Shown here: positions 25,706 through 31,017 of the stretch, piece after piece
Layout of the letters: the number at the start of each line of letters is the position of its first letter
How positions within the stretch are numbered: the first letter of the stretch is position 1
Origin: Balneolaceae bacterium
GTDB lineage: Bacteria > Bacteroidota > Rhodothermia > Balneolales > Balneolaceae
Direction of reading: 5' to 3'
Assembly: GCA_007693745.1 (NCBI GenBank)
Contig: REDA01000041.1
Span: forward strand, 1-64,000
Length of the DNA stretch: 64,000 nucleotides
Translations under genes and position numbers: made by a program
Notes under the pieces: model-generated
Database searches by the model: none
What the model saw: only the letters and a program-made list of their open reading frames with translations
What the model was told of the DNA's origin: nothing

Positions 25706-26629
25706 ATGAAAACCATTGAAATTTCAGATCTGAGCCGATCTTTTGGCAAAACCAAGGCCGTACAAAACGTTTCATTTGATGTTGAAAAAGGCAGGATTTT
25801 CGGGCTCTTGGGTCCTAACGGAGCCGGCAAGACGACAACCATAAGGATGATCAACTACATCATGCCTCCTGATGAGGGGTCCATTCTTATCAACGGGTAT
25901 CCTGTAAGCCCCATGACCCAGAAAATGATCGGCTACATGCCGGAAGAAAGAGGGCTTTACAAGAAAATGAAGGTGGGTGAACAGCTGATGTATCTGGCAC
26001 AGCTAAAGGGGATGAAAGCGAATGATGCCAGAGAAAAAATTAAATACTGGCTTAAGAGATTCAATGCTGAGGACTGGCATTCCAAAGTTGTAGGAGAGCT
26101 TTCCAAGGGTATGAGTCAAAAAATCCAGTTTATTGCGACCATTGTGCACGACCCGGATATCTATATTTTCGACGAACCCTTCAGCGGTCTGGATCCGATC
26201 AACAGTGAACTGCTCAAGCAGATCATCATTGAATTGCGAAAAGATGGTAAAACCATTCTGTTCTCTACCCATCGTATGGAACAGGTGGAACAGATGTGTG
26301 ATGACATCTGCCTTTTCAACAATGGGAAAGTGGTATTGACAGGCAATTTGAGAAAATTGAAAAAGGAGTTTGGCAAAAATACACTGCTTCTGGAGTTTGA
26401 GGGCAACGACTCCTTCCTGGATCAGCTGGAGAATGTCCGGATTAACAACAGATCCACCAATTTTGCTGAAATCCGGATACTTGACGGCCTCCAGCCTCAG
26501 GAGATCCTGAAACTTGCGATGGACTATTCAGAAATACATAAATTTGAACTGGTTGAACCTTCTCTCAATGAGATTTTCATATCCACTGTTGGAGAAGACA
26601 ACATCAAAAACAGCGGGGTTTTACTGTGA
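25706..26629 (+). CDS. NatA-like ABC transporter ATP-binding protein
   Basis: A 307-residue ATPase of the ABC-2 exporter type. It has Walker A LLGPNGAGKTTTIRMI, signature LSKGMSQKIQF, Walker B IYIFDEPFSGLDP, the H-loop FSTHRMEQVEQM and a C-terminal DUF4162-type domain of about 80 residues. An ATG at 25679 would add nine residues; I prefer ATG 25706 (MKTIEISDL) because it matches family starts. The TGA overlaps the ATG of the permease, so the subunits are coupled. The substrate is unknown; sodium or drug extrusion is the usual guess for NatAB-like pairs. Confidence 0.92.
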   Translation: MKTIEISDLSRSFGKTKAVQNVSFDVEKGRIFGLLGPNGAGKTTTIRMINYIMPPDEGSILINGYPVSPMTQKMIGYMPEERGLYKKMKVGEQLMYLAQLKGMKANDAREKIKYWLKRFNAEDWHSKVVGELSKGMSQKIQFIATIVHDPDIYIFDEPFSGLDPINSELLKQIIIELRKDGKTILFSTHRMEQVEQMCDDICLFNNGKVVLTGNLRKLKKEFGKNTLLLEFEGNDSFLDQLENVRINNRSTNFAEIRILDGLQPQEILKLAMDYSEIHKFELVEPSLNEIFISTVGEDNIKNSGVLL

Positions 26630-27924
26630 TGAACTGGAGACAGATCTATTTGGTACTAAAGAGAGAATACCTTACACGTGTAAAGAGCAAGGGCTTCATC
26701 TGGGCCACCGTCCTGGTTCCGGTCGGATTTGCAGCCTTTATCGGTATAGGGGTTTTTATCTCAATCTGGGAAAGTGACGTCGCATTGCAGATCGGTGTGC
26801 AGGATGAAACGGGACAGGTGATCCGGTTGCTGGAACAGGTCAATGAGCAGCGCTATATCGATTATTCGGACATTGATTCCGACTCACTCCGGGTGTTGGT
26901 GCAGCAGGATGCCATAACCGGTTTTATTCTGATAACTGAGGAGAATATCTCCGGAGGGAAAAACCCGGAACTGATTCACAGCGGATCGGGAGGCATGGAA
27001 TTCATTCTTTCTGTAGAATCTGATTTCAGACAGGTTCTGAGGGAGGAAAAACTGCGCAGAGCGGATGTATCGGAAGAGATCCAGAGAATCTATGATGCCA
27101 GAATCAGCCTGGATACCCGGCGTCTCACCCGGGAAGGCGAGGAACAGGATGATGATACATTTTTTCTCTCCATTGTTGGCTTTATTCTTGGAATTATCAT
27201 CTTTATCTCAATCTTCAGTTACGGCGGATACATTACACGCGGGGTTATAGAAGAAAAGACCAATCGCATCGTGGAAGTAATCGCCTCTTCTGTGAAGCCG
27301 ATTGAACTTCTAACCGGGAAAATGGCCGGGGTCGGCCTTCTCGCAATTACACAGTTTGGTGTATGGATACTTGCCTTCTTCGGGTTGTCTGCCATCGCCG
27401 GTCCCGCTGCACTCCATTTCATGGGCAGCAGCAGTTCACCCATGGGTGCAGAAATGGCGGCTTCAGAAGCTGAAATACCTGCTTTTCTGAACCTTCCCAC
27501 GCTTGAAGTTTCTCTGATCGTCTATTTTATCATCTTCTTCATTCTTGGGTATCTGCTTTACAGCTCACTTTTCGCAGCCGTCGGATCCGCAGCAGATTCT
27601 GAAACAGATACCCAGCAACTCATGCTTCCGATCACTGCGCCGATAATGATCGCCTACTTCATCATGTTTCACGCCTGGAGAAATCCCGACAGTACTCTTT
27701 CTGTGATAGGGTCACTGGTACCTTTTTTCTCGCCGATCCTGATGGTTACCCGTATAGCAATTACGGAAGTGCCCTTCTGGCAGATTGGATTATCAATTAT
27801 TCTCATGATTCTGACATTTGCAGCCACAATGTGGATCAGTTCGAAAATTTATAAAGTAGGCATCTTAAGTTATGGCAGTACAGCAACTTTTAAAGATCTG
27901 CTCCGCTGGATAAAACAGTCCTGA
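26629..27924 (+). CDS. NatB-like ABC-2 transporter permease
   Basis: A 431-residue inner-membrane protein. One transmembrane helix lies near residues 20-45, followed by an extracytoplasmic domain of about 130 residues (VQDETGQVIRLLEQVNEQR). Five or more helices occupy the C-terminal half, with ABC-2 features TRGVIEEKTNRIVEVIASSVKP and LLTGKMAGVGLLAITQF. Start ATG 26629 overlaps the ATPase stop (TGATG). The 3' end overlaps the convergent HEAT-repeat gene by 35 bases. Confidence 0.92.
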   Translation: MNWRQIYLVLKREYLTRVKSKGFIWATVLVPVGFAAFIGIGVFISIWESDVALQIGVQDETGQVIRLLEQVNEQRYIDYSDIDSDSLRVLVQQDAITGFILITEENISGGKNPELIHSGSGGMEFILSVESDFRQVLREEKLRRADVSEEIQRIYDARISLDTRRLTREGEEQDDDTFFLSIVGFILGIIIFISIFSYGGYITRGVIEEKTNRIVEVIASSVKPIELLTGKMAGVGLLAITQFGVWILAFFGLSAIAGPAALHFMGSSSSPMGAEMAASEAEIPAFLNLPTLEVSLIVYFIIFFILGYLLYSSLFAAVGSAADSETDTQQLMLPITAPIMIAYFIMFHAWRNPDSTLSVIGSLVPFFSPILMVTRIAITEVPFWQIGLSIILMILTFAATMWISSKIYKVGILSYGSTATFKDLLRWIKQS

Positions 27925-30241
27925 CCCGGGCATCATACTCCCGCTCCAGCAGTTGTGAACGAAGTTCCTCTCTCTGTGCCTCCGGAACCAGTGAGAGGGC
28001 TTCAGCTGCCCTGAGGCGGATTATTGGATTTCTGTTCTGCATCAGTCCGGGAATTCTTCTGTTCCAGTTACTGCCATCTTGATCTGCCTGCATTAAAACA
28101 CCGATCAGATCTGATCTCAACCGGTCCGGAAATTCATCAGCCAGAAAATATGTGGCAATATCTCCAACGAGCTGAATCTCCCCTTTTTCGGCAAGGTAGG
28201 TAAGGATTAGCGGTATGTGTTCAAGCAGCTGCTCTCTTGAAACAAGATTTCTGGCTATTTCAGAAAACCGCGCGGCATCTGTGACTCTGCTTAGAGAGTG
28301 GATAGCAGCGATTCGAATCTCCCTGTTATTCGACTGAATAGCAATCGTCCGGAGGCGGTCTGCAACACGGTCATTGTCCCGGAAATTGGCAAGCGCCTCT
28401 ACGGCAGCAAGCTGTATCTCCGGATCCTGAGTGGCCGCAGAATAGCGTATAAACCTTTCATCCGTGCCGGAAGCTCCCATGGTAAGACTCGATATCGAAC
28501 GAAGAAGCTCTGCCACTACGAGAGGGTCTGTTTCAAATTGGAGTAAATCTCCAAGTGCCAGCTGGAGATCCGGATTTTCAGGTGAATCAGCCATCGCCCT
28601 TGCTGCTTCTGCTTTTTCATCTGAAGATTCAGCATTTCGCAACTGGTAAACCCAAAACAGATCGGGTTTAACCACCTCTATAGAAATGTCATCTCTGCCT
28701 CTCACCTTAAACGTGATGTTCTCCACAGCTGGCGAAACTGAGAGAATTACTGTTGAACTCTCCCCGCTGAATTCCGTTTCAAACTCTTCTTTCCCGAAGA
28801 AGGAGTGTTCGGTTACCGTTACCCGCACATTCTCCGGAACAGCATCCCCCTGCGCCCGGAATTGCACTCTTGCCGTTTCAGCACCCTCCTCCCATTCAAG
28901 CTCAGCGCGATACAAAAAGCCGCCTGTATCAACGGACTTCTGAGTAAACGCTGAGCCCGTGGCCAGTTCAGACAGCTCCAAACGATGAAAGTGGGGCTGT
29001 CCTGTGAGCAAATAGACCAGCTCCGTTAAGTGTGTCCAGTCCATCACCCGGCTTCCCAACCCAAAAATCTCAGGCAGTACACTCATTACATTCTGAAGCA
29101 TTTCCGAAGAATCGTCTCTGTCCAGCGTGAGCATCCAGCGCTGGAATTGCGGGTAGGAGAATGCTGAGTAGGGAGACTGATCTGCCGGACTAAAAGAGGA
29201 AACCGGATCAGAATGAAAATGTTCAGTATCGCCGGCGGGATCCAGTCCCGCCATCAGTGCCATAAGCGCCCTGAGATAGAAGACCGCATCGGGATCCGAC
29301 CCGTTCTGTTCTGTTATGTAAACACCCGCCCACTGAGCGAGCAGATTCTCCCGAAGCTGTTGTAACAGCGCACCTTTCTCTCTGTACAGGAAAACCGTTC
29401 CCGACATATATTGTTTCACCTCCAAAAAATGCTGATCAAGCAGAACAATACTAAGGTTATCAAAAGGAATCACACCGGAAAAATTCCGTAACCGCCCTGT
29501 CAGGGCAACGGCTTCATCAAGCAGTTCCTGGATCGCGTAGTAATCTGTTTCCGAGAAAAATGTTACTGAATACGCATCCTCTGTGATTTCCGATCTCTGC
29601 ACCGGAAACTGGCCTGTAATCCACCCAAAGGTTGTCACAGGCAGTGCAATCTCAGATCTGATCACTGTCTTTTCCTGCTGAACTGAAATAATTTCAGAAG
29701 ACAGCCGCCGCCCCCCCGCAATCATATCGTATCCGGCTGGATGAATGAATGCTATCTCGTAAGTGAATCCGTTTCCGGGATGATCCACAACTGGCAGCCA
29801 GTGCCTGACAGAACGGGGGAGCTGAGAAGTTCTGATCACACCGGAGTCGTGCAGATGGAGCCCAAACAGTGGTTCTGCCCTGTAGCGAATATAGAGTGAG
29901 AGAAGATCCCCTCTCAGAAATGGTTCATCCGGCAGGATAAGAAGCTGAGCACCCTCTACCCGAAAAGACACTGTATTATCATTCAGCCTCACTTCTTCCA
30001 CATCAATATGAACGGCATCCAGAATAATGGTATCCACCGTCACCCTTTGAGCCACCATGCTGTACAGGAGTTCCCCGGTAATTACACCCTCATCGCTTAT
30101 GGATATCTCTGCCACAAGATGATCTGTTTTAACATCCATTCGGGGAAATGCAGGATAATCCCATGCCTGAGCAGCCAGGTCCGTGAAGGCAAAAAAACAG
30201 AGTATCAAAGCCGCAGTTACCAATCTCATGAAATCTCTCAT
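27890..30241 (-). CDS. Degenerate M1-aminopeptidase-like secreted protein with HEAT repeats
   Basis: A 783-residue exported protein with a signal peptide (to about residue 25, ending TDLAAQA). Residues about 30-330 follow the layout of M1 metallopeptidases. There is a beta-rich N-terminal domain with PVVDHPGNGFTYEIAFIHP, then MSGTVFLYREK, which stands where the substrate-site GxMEN segment lies. RENLLAQWAG (about residues 297-306) stands where HExxHQWxG is expected. Both zinc histidines and the catalytic Glu pattern are lost. Residues from about 560 are HEAT-type helical repeats, as in PEIQLAAVEALANFRD, REIRIAAIHSLSRVTD and PIIRLRAAEALSLVPE. A binding or scaffold role is inferred. The ATG at 30241 overlaps the TGA of the hisN-like gene. 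Confidence 0.8.
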   Translation of the reverse strand: MRDFMRLVTAALILCFFAFTDLAAQAWDYPAFPRMDVKTDHLVAEISISDEGVITGELLYSMVAQRVTVDTIILDAVHIDVEEVRLNDNTVSFRVEGAQLLILPDEPFLRGDLLSLYIRYRAEPLFGLHLHDSGVIRTSQLPRSVRHWLPVVDHPGNGFTYEIAFIHPAGYDMIAGGRRLSSEIISVQQEKTVIRSEIALPVTTFGWITGQFPVQRSEITEDAYSVTFFSETDYYAIQELLDEAVALTGRLRNFSGVIPFDNLSIVLLDQHFLEVKQYMSGTVFLYREKGALLQQLRENLLAQWAGVYITEQNGSDPDAVFYLRALMALMAGLDPAGDTEHFHSDPVSSFSPADQSPYSAFSYPQFQRWMLTLDRDDSSEMLQNVMSVLPEIFGLGSRVMDWTHLTELVYLLTGQPHFHRLELSELATGSAFTQKSVDTGGFLYRAELEWEEGAETARVQFRAQGDAVPENVRVTVTEHSFFGKEEFETEFSGESSTVILSVSPAVENITFKVRGRDDISIEVVKPDLFWVYQLRNAESSDEKAEAARAMADSPENPDLQLALGDLLQFETDPLVVAELLRSISSLTMGASGTDERFIRYSAATQDPEIQLAAVEALANFRDNDRVADRLRTIAIQSNNREIRIAAIHSLSRVTDAARFSEIARNLVSREQLLEHIPLILTYLAEKGEIQLVGDIATYFLADEFPDRLRSDLIGVLMQADQDGSNWNRRIPGLMQNRNPIIRLRAAEALSLVPEAQREELRSQLLEREYDARVRTVLSSGADL

Positions 30242-31017
30242 CAATCTTCTGAGTTAAATAGTTGGATAATTTGCCTGTGAATTCCGGGAGCAGAGGAGAT
30301 GCCGTTACCGGTTTCTATAAGCGGCTTTCCCCTGAGATCTGTGTAGACCCCTCCCGCTTCTGTGATTATGGGTAACAGAGCTGCGGCATCCCAGAGATGC
30401 AATACTGCATCAATCATCACATCTGCCCTGCCGGTTGCTACCAGCATGTGGCCGTATGCATCGCCCCATGTACGGTGCAGCCGGGTGGAATCAATCATCT
30501 TTTGAAGAGGTTTTTCATAACCGTATTCGGAAAAACTGGTAACATCTGTGGTTAAAAACGTTGCCTCAGCAAGATTCGTACACTCCCTGACCGTAACCGG
30601 TTTTCCGTTCAGGCGACATCCCGAACCCAGTGAAGCCTCTGTCATTTCTCCGGTTGCAGGAGCGTAAATCACGCCTGCTGAGGGTACACCCTTTACCATC
30701 ACCCCGATCAGTGTAGTGTAGAAGGGTACACCATGGATAAACGATTTTGTTCCGTCTATAGGATCCAGAATCCAAACGATATCCGCGTCCTCTTTCTCTC
30801 TCCCAAATTCCTCCCCAATGATGCCATGATCCGGATAACGATCACGGATCTTCTCTCTGATCAGCTTTTCTGATTCCCTGTCGGCATTCGTGACCGGCGA
30901 CGCATCCTCTTTGTACTTCAGTTCAAAGGATTTCTGAAAATAGTCTAATGTAACATCTCCTCCGGCTTTTGCAAATTCAACTGCAGCCTTTCTCAATTCG
31001 TCGAGTAATACACTCAT
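30241..31017 (-). CDS. hisN: Histidinol-phosphatase-like inositol monophosphatase family protein
   Basis: A 258-residue phosphatase with the family metal motifs: IIGEEFG, WILDPIDGTKSFIHGVP and LWDAAALLPIITEAGG. The segments RTWGDAYGHMLVATGRADVMID and DGTKSFIHGVP are characteristic of the HisN type, which removes phosphate from L-histidinol phosphate in histidine synthesis. It is not near other his genes, so the symbol rests on motif similarity. TGATG overlap couples it to the HEAT-repeat gene, an odd partner. Promoter expected in 31018-31303. Confidence 0.82.
   Translation of the reverse strand: MSVLLDELRKAAVEFAKAGGDVTLDYFQKSFELKYKEDASPVTNADRESEKLIREKIRDRYPDHGIIGEEFGREKEDADIVWILDPIDGTKSFIHGVPFYTTLIGVMVKGVPSAGVIYAPATGEMTEASLGSGCRLNGKPVTVRECTNLAEATFLTTDVTSFSEYGYEKPLQKMIDSTRLHRTWGDAYGHMLVATGRADVMIDAVLHLWDAAALLPIITEAGGVYTDLRGKPLIETGNGISSAPGIHRQIIQLFNSED

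Follow-up and report, generated by a model that had tools for sequence, protein, structure and literature searches.

A conserved M1-derived pseudopeptidase with HEAT repeats in Balneolales, and its possible role as a periplasmic scaffold

Pseudopeptidases are best known from eukaryotes. The sections available to us of a 2024 review of pseudometallopeptidases give the yeast protein Tma108 as the M1 example and contain no bacterial M1 case (PMC11266112). Like the protein described here, Tma108 is an M1 member proposed to act without catalysis, but according to the same sections it is ribosome-associated and reportedly retains all of its active-site residues except one (PMC11266112). TAF2, a subunit of TFIID, also consists of an M1 fold followed by HEAT repeats and has also lost the zinc motif; human TAF2 reads SLAQQFFG at the aligned position, without HExxH. 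However, TAF2 belongs to a nuclear transcription factor of eukaryotes, whereas the bacterial family would be exported.

Among catalytic proteins, LTA4H, ERAP1 and the M1 enzyme of Deinococcus share the N-terminal, catalytic and helical domain fold but are zinc-bound enzymes. The M1-HEAT aminopeptidases of Bacteroidota and Rhodothermota (for example L192, L200, L203 and L243) share the domain order, the QW-G helix and, at about 800-900 aa, a similar length, with a profile match that runs along it. Unlike our protein, they retain HExxH, the Glu that serves as third ligand and, mostly, the GxMEN motif, and we assume from these motifs that they are active. A literature search whose coverage excluded most subscription papers returned no matching report on a bacterial pseudo-M1 family.

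Gene, domains and predicted fold

In the window, the 64,000-nucleotide stretch of Balneolaceae DNA analyzed here, the complete gene occupies 27893..30241 on the minus strand and encodes 783 aa (P0001) in an intact reading frame, with its stop codon at 27890-27892. An earlier note on this DNA had correctly placed an uninterrupted frame of 783 codons at 27890-30241; it gave no strand, which is minus. At the 3' end, the gene and a convergent ABC-2 permease gene (26626-27924, plus strand) overlap by 35 bp (27890-27924).

The sequence of residues 1-25 (MRDFMRLVTAALILCFFAFTDLAAQ; 30167..30241, minus strand) resembles a signal peptide. Listed orthologues with an intact N-terminus open on a comparable hydrophobic stretch, which in many of them ends in AQ. 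We looked at the end of this stretch for the lipobox that a LolB-like acceptor would carry and found none; the window protein reads AAQAWDYP, without Cys. Lipoprotein anchoring was dropped for want of a canonical lipobox. In Balneola-type N-termini (L105-L109, L111, L113, L115, L117, L119, L120, L122 and L123), the usual AQ is replaced by a Cys whose surroundings resemble Q-[D/N/T/S/E]-C, which is not a canonical lipobox either.

Four domains follow, all encoded on the minus strand. The M1 N-terminal beta domain (approximately residues 26-215; 29597..30166) is recognized from Peptidase_M1_N, the predicted fold and invariant columns, and includes LPRSVRHWLPVVDHP, in which P142, W148, P150 and P155 are invariant. 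Predicted fold and alignment place the pseudo-catalytic domain at approximately residues 216-425 (28967..29596). Model strands and whole-chain M1 alignments delimit a beta-sandwich of the M1 domain III type (approximately residues 440-524; 28670..28924). Residues 525-783 (27893..28669) form the C-terminal HEAT-repeat domain, with a HEAT_2 match of 8e-11 and helical repeats in the model. The order proposed earlier (signal peptide, beta domain, pseudo-catalytic domain, HEAT repeats) is thus recovered as a signal-peptide-like stretch, N-domain, pseudo-catalytic domain, beta domain and HEAT repeats.

In Pfam, the window protein on its own matches HEAT_2 (E=8e-11) and, marginally, Peptidase_M1_N (E=0.01), and a search of this single sequence against known M1 proteins is also marginal (E=0.21). 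Among aligned orthologues, both Pfam families are matched in 45/45 (best M1_N value 2e-13). An AlphaFold2 model built with 46 orthologues as input (mean pLDDT 88.7, pTM 0.79) bears out the M1 fold that had been proposed from the letters: it has the four-domain fold of M1 peptidases, structure comparison matches it to ERAP1 along the chain (Z approximately 36), and the two-domain Deinococcus M1 enzyme aligns with Z 33.4 and 3.2 Å over 377 residues. By ancestry and modeled fold, then, the protein belongs to M1, its N-domain and thermolysin-like domain being predicted to sit in the M1 arrangement.

The shared architecture raises the question of kinship with TAF2. TAF2 ranks second in the Foldseek listing for the model and is the best match when the orthologue profile (n=45) is searched against PDB sequences (1.8e-18, compared to 4e-16 for LTA4H); Pfam TPR_TAF2_C matches weakly in 12/45 orthologues. 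When a single sister-group sequence is searched, however, Deinococcus M1 and ERAP2 both score above TAF2. The M1 segment alone also fits LTA4H better than TAF2, so independent loss is likelier than specific kinship. Beyond the common architecture, these comparisons lend no support to a special relationship with TAF2.

The erased active site and the age of the loss

The zinc site is erased. ENLLAQWAG (residues 298-306; 29324..29350, minus strand) occupies the HExxHQWxG columns in the alignment, with E298 N299 L300 L301 A302 in place of HExxH, followed by Q303 W304 A305 G306, so that Q, W and G are still as in the enzymes. At the zinc and catalytic positions, where enzymes have H, E, H and E, the window protein has E298, N299, A302 and F321. 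The earlier note had aligned RENLLAQWAG with HExxHQWxG. It was right that HExxH is missing and QW kept, but its register is one residue off, because it set ten letters against nine and our alignment is anchored on QW. Nor is a Glu-like spacing preserved, since the Glu falls at the position of the first His and the catalytic Glu is replaced by Asn.

The same loss runs through the family. HExxH occurs nowhere in any of 94 non-identical orthologue rows, a few of which may be one gene with differing upstream reach, and the expectation that close homologues would share the missing histidines was borne out. The first ligand position is R in 70/94 rows, the catalytic Glu position is G in 63/94 and the second ligand position is A, G or S in 81/94; the third ligand Glu is kept in 21/94. 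The GxMEN exopeptidase motif is erased as well: its columns read EVKQY (residues 274-278; 29408..29422, minus strand), and across the family its first G is mostly E or D and its E mostly S, P, N, Q or T. An earlier reading of this loop as MSGTVFLYREK had noticed the absence of GxMEN, but the true columns lie just before that string. The catalytic Tyr column holds W, L or F in most rows and F366 in the window protein, in a gapped part of the alignment that is weaker than the other sites. In enzymes, the stretch between the HExxH and FFDxW positions carries the catalytic Tyr. Its median length is 107 residues in Balneolales compared to 137 in active M1-HEAT relatives, a difference of about 30. 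Nearly invariant in the family are QW-G, the P..HW.P..DxP motif of the N-domain, and Y410/G414.

Could the cleft house a different chemistry, either at another metal site or as a metal-free hydrolase? The third-ligand Glu retained in some rows and a "WE" pair that is common in the family just before the old GxMEN would fit such a changed enzyme. Yet no conserved set of His, Asp, Glu or Cys substitutes for the ligands in the aligned site, and the catalytic domain is under less constraint than the HEAT repeats. We consider this alternative very improbable. The protein is almost certainly a true pseudoenzyme derived from an M1 peptidase.

Full-length relatives in sister families of the class also lack HExxH, without shortening of the domain, and several of the same genomes encode separate M1-HEAT paralogues that bear HExxH. 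In a first tree, a single branch divides dead from active rows. In a larger tree, the clade of active paralogues is supported (100/99) and excludes the ancient dead group, and it takes in L235 (G394:C15) and L244 (G316:C9), both without HExxH. These two are recent, independent losses outside the ancient dead family, and the single loss for all dead M1-HEAT proteins suggested by the early tree was accordingly abandoned. For the family itself, the simplest account is one ancient loss before Balneolales and the sister families split, followed by domain shortening in Balneolales; both trees are midpoint-rooted, and the direction of change is read from the fact that M1 peptidases in general have the zinc site.

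Retention and the shift of constraint

A search for related loci with the single protein returned nothing, while the alignment as query did find them; its named hits are Balneolaceae, among them Rhodohalobacter, Fodinibius, Balneola and Gracilimonas. The profile matches in 116/129 Balneolales genomes, nearly all matches being full-length and specific; the count includes a few weak ones (e.g. G046 and G037), possibly to M1 proteins of another kind. All 37 genomes from the other four families of the order have a match. In its own family, the Balneolaceae, single-sequence searches of whole genomes detected the gene in 77/92. The same type of search found no copy in the small-genome genera g19 and g20.

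Those absences might suggest a gene on its way out. The window copy would fit this picture: it matches Pfam M1_N poorly, sits on a long terminal branch within its clade and has lost some nearly invariant residues, W273 among them. Against decay, the frame is intact, the gene is kept across nearly the whole order and the site was lost long ago. Moreover, whole-gene dN/dS is 0.09-0.18 in close pairs of other orthologues (the window copy has no relative near enough) and is low in the pseudo-catalytic part too, from which we conclude that the gene is maintained. These values speak against pseudogene status, which we rejected, make ongoing decay hardly credible and, with the near-universal retention, uphold the earlier judgment that this is not decay. 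The window genome has three other M1-peptidase loci, so the loss of this protein's activity would have been affordable.

What has changed is where the constraint lies. In the Balneolales family, mean pairwise identity is 0.46 in the first HEAT block (residues 525-602) and 0.26 in the catalytic domain; in active M1-HEAT paralogues, the corresponding values are 0.22 and 0.39, the two sets being unequal in size and depth. The active proteins are thus most conserved in the catalytic domain and least in the HEAT repeats, the opposite of the pseudo-M1 family. The most invariant string of the family, NPDLQLALxD, lies early in the HEAT domain; in the window it is NPDLQLALGD, the core of the first HEAT block (residues 556-565; 28547..28576, minus strand). 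Judged from sequence comparison, nothing within the protein speaks more strongly for a changed job than this reversal, although folding may account for part of the conservation at the HEAT start.

The earlier note had suggested either peptide binding or a scaffold role. For the former, peptides or protein N-termini would still bind in the old cleft, making the protein a periplasmic chaperone or peptide trap comparable to Tma108. The M1 cleft architecture is retained, along with the nearly invariant residues named above, and the accessible part of the review describes Tma108 as binding nascent chains, apparently via its substrate pocket (PMC11266112). However, GxMEN, which recognizes the free amine, is erased, and the catalytic domain, from which some 30 residues are gone, is one of the more weakly conserved regions. 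Cleft binding is therefore an unlikely reading, albeit one to be taken seriously. With GxMEN gone and the strongest constraint in the HEAT domain, a scaffold is more likely than pocket-based peptide binding.

Gene neighborhood and proposed role

Directly upstream, in the same operon, lies hisN (30244..31017, minus strand), encoding a histidinol-phosphatase of the inositol-monophosphatase superfamily (TIGR02067, 283 bits against a cut-off of 275). Its TGA shares bases with the ATG of the pseudo-M1 gene at 30241 (TGATG). hisN is present at 47/50 named Balneolales loci, lies within 25 bp of the pseudo-M1 gene in 33 of the 44 loci measured, and adjoins it in 20/20 loci from other families of the order; in Fodinibius-type genomes an extra gene sits between the two. 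The adjacency is conserved, but hisN encodes a cytoplasmic biosynthetic enzyme, and we took the arrangement as co-transcription and rejected hisN as a functional partner. Downstream, Balneolales loci usually have a convergent ABC-2 transporter pair.

Some loci carry further genes near hisN. Those of the Balneola/Gracilimonas type have two conserved families there (L105:3153-4391, L105:4446-5075 and relatives) without a Pfam or NCBIfam match, and the gene beside them is YceI-like. In some Rhodohalobacter-type loci, a gene upstream of hisN was considered as lolA and rejected; Pfam gave no LolA match there, only an InlB-like repeat or nothing.

No protease was seen as a conserved neighbor at pseudo-M1 loci, and the loci of active paralogues are unlinked. 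This bears on a further possibility, that the protein is the non-enzymatic subunit of an assembly whose active partner is an M1 peptidase or some other protease. Candidates for that partner exist, since the same genomes or those of relatives also encode active M1-HEAT paralogues and further M1 peptidases, and MPP alpha, from another family, is a precedent in the portion of the review available to us (PMC11266112). Given the missing linkage, we regard such an assembly as improbable.

The sister group has a different and more suggestive neighborhood. Its gene order is aminotransferase V, lolA, a PF03706 membrane protein and pseudo-M1, with a SpoU methylase gene convergent; LolA is the carrier for lipoproteins bound for the outer membrane. 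The order lolA-PF03706-pseudo-M1 is found in 9/9 genomes with enough upstream DNA, from five sister families (L217, L218, L219, L220, L212, L253, L254, L258 and L259), compared to 0/21 loci of active paralogues, some of which are short-flanked or mutually overlapping. Two of the nine proteins, from L258 and L259 (955 and 979 aa), are very divergent and have lost even QW, with the lolA-PF03706 operon unchanged. The window genome also has a weak LolA match and a PF03706-like gene, but at another location, behind an ftsK-like gene; these identifications come from sequence similarity and position. A literature search for a link between YbhN and LolA, again with most subscription papers outside coverage, found no matching report.

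Taken together, the best overall explanation, to which we assign a probability of roughly 0.6, is that the protein is exported and, without catalysis, acts as a binding scaffold or adaptor, perhaps for a transport process of the envelope that involves LolA. The protein would be exported by Sec to the periplasm, where the N-terminal and dead M1 domains may form a platform, while a partner would bind mainly at the beginning of the HEAT repeats, which is strongly conserved. That it acts as a periplasmic scaffold or adaptor is probable. More tentatively, the partner process may be a delivery of lipoproteins or lipids to the outer membrane that is linked to LolA, a reading prompted by the gene's position at the end of the aminotransferase-lolA-PF03706 operon in the sister group; a LolA-linked role of any kind is possible but not favored. 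For the window genome the operon link is indirect, as the Balneolales gene sits with hisN and lolA-PF03706 lies elsewhere. Even so, the operon of the sister taxa is a more specific lead than peptide binding or a scaffold in general.

Rhodothermota and Balneolota are not known to have LolB. It is conceivable, if doubtful, that in both the LolA pathway, for lipoproteins or lipids, recruited a dead aminopeptidase as a dedicated periplasmic part, possibly one that receives or docks LolA cargo. Through the lolA operon, the protein becomes a candidate, open to testing, for an additional component of the machinery that carries lipoproteins to the outer membrane in this branch. More broadly, this is a bacterial pseudo-M1 protein, probably exported, that has been retained in one order and in its sister families and coexists with paralogues that bear HExxH. 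Because sister-group intermediates have lost the site and kept the domain length, the transition between enzyme and scaffold can be traced. The protein parallels TAF2, being apparently a second case of an M1-HEAT protein that became a scaffold.
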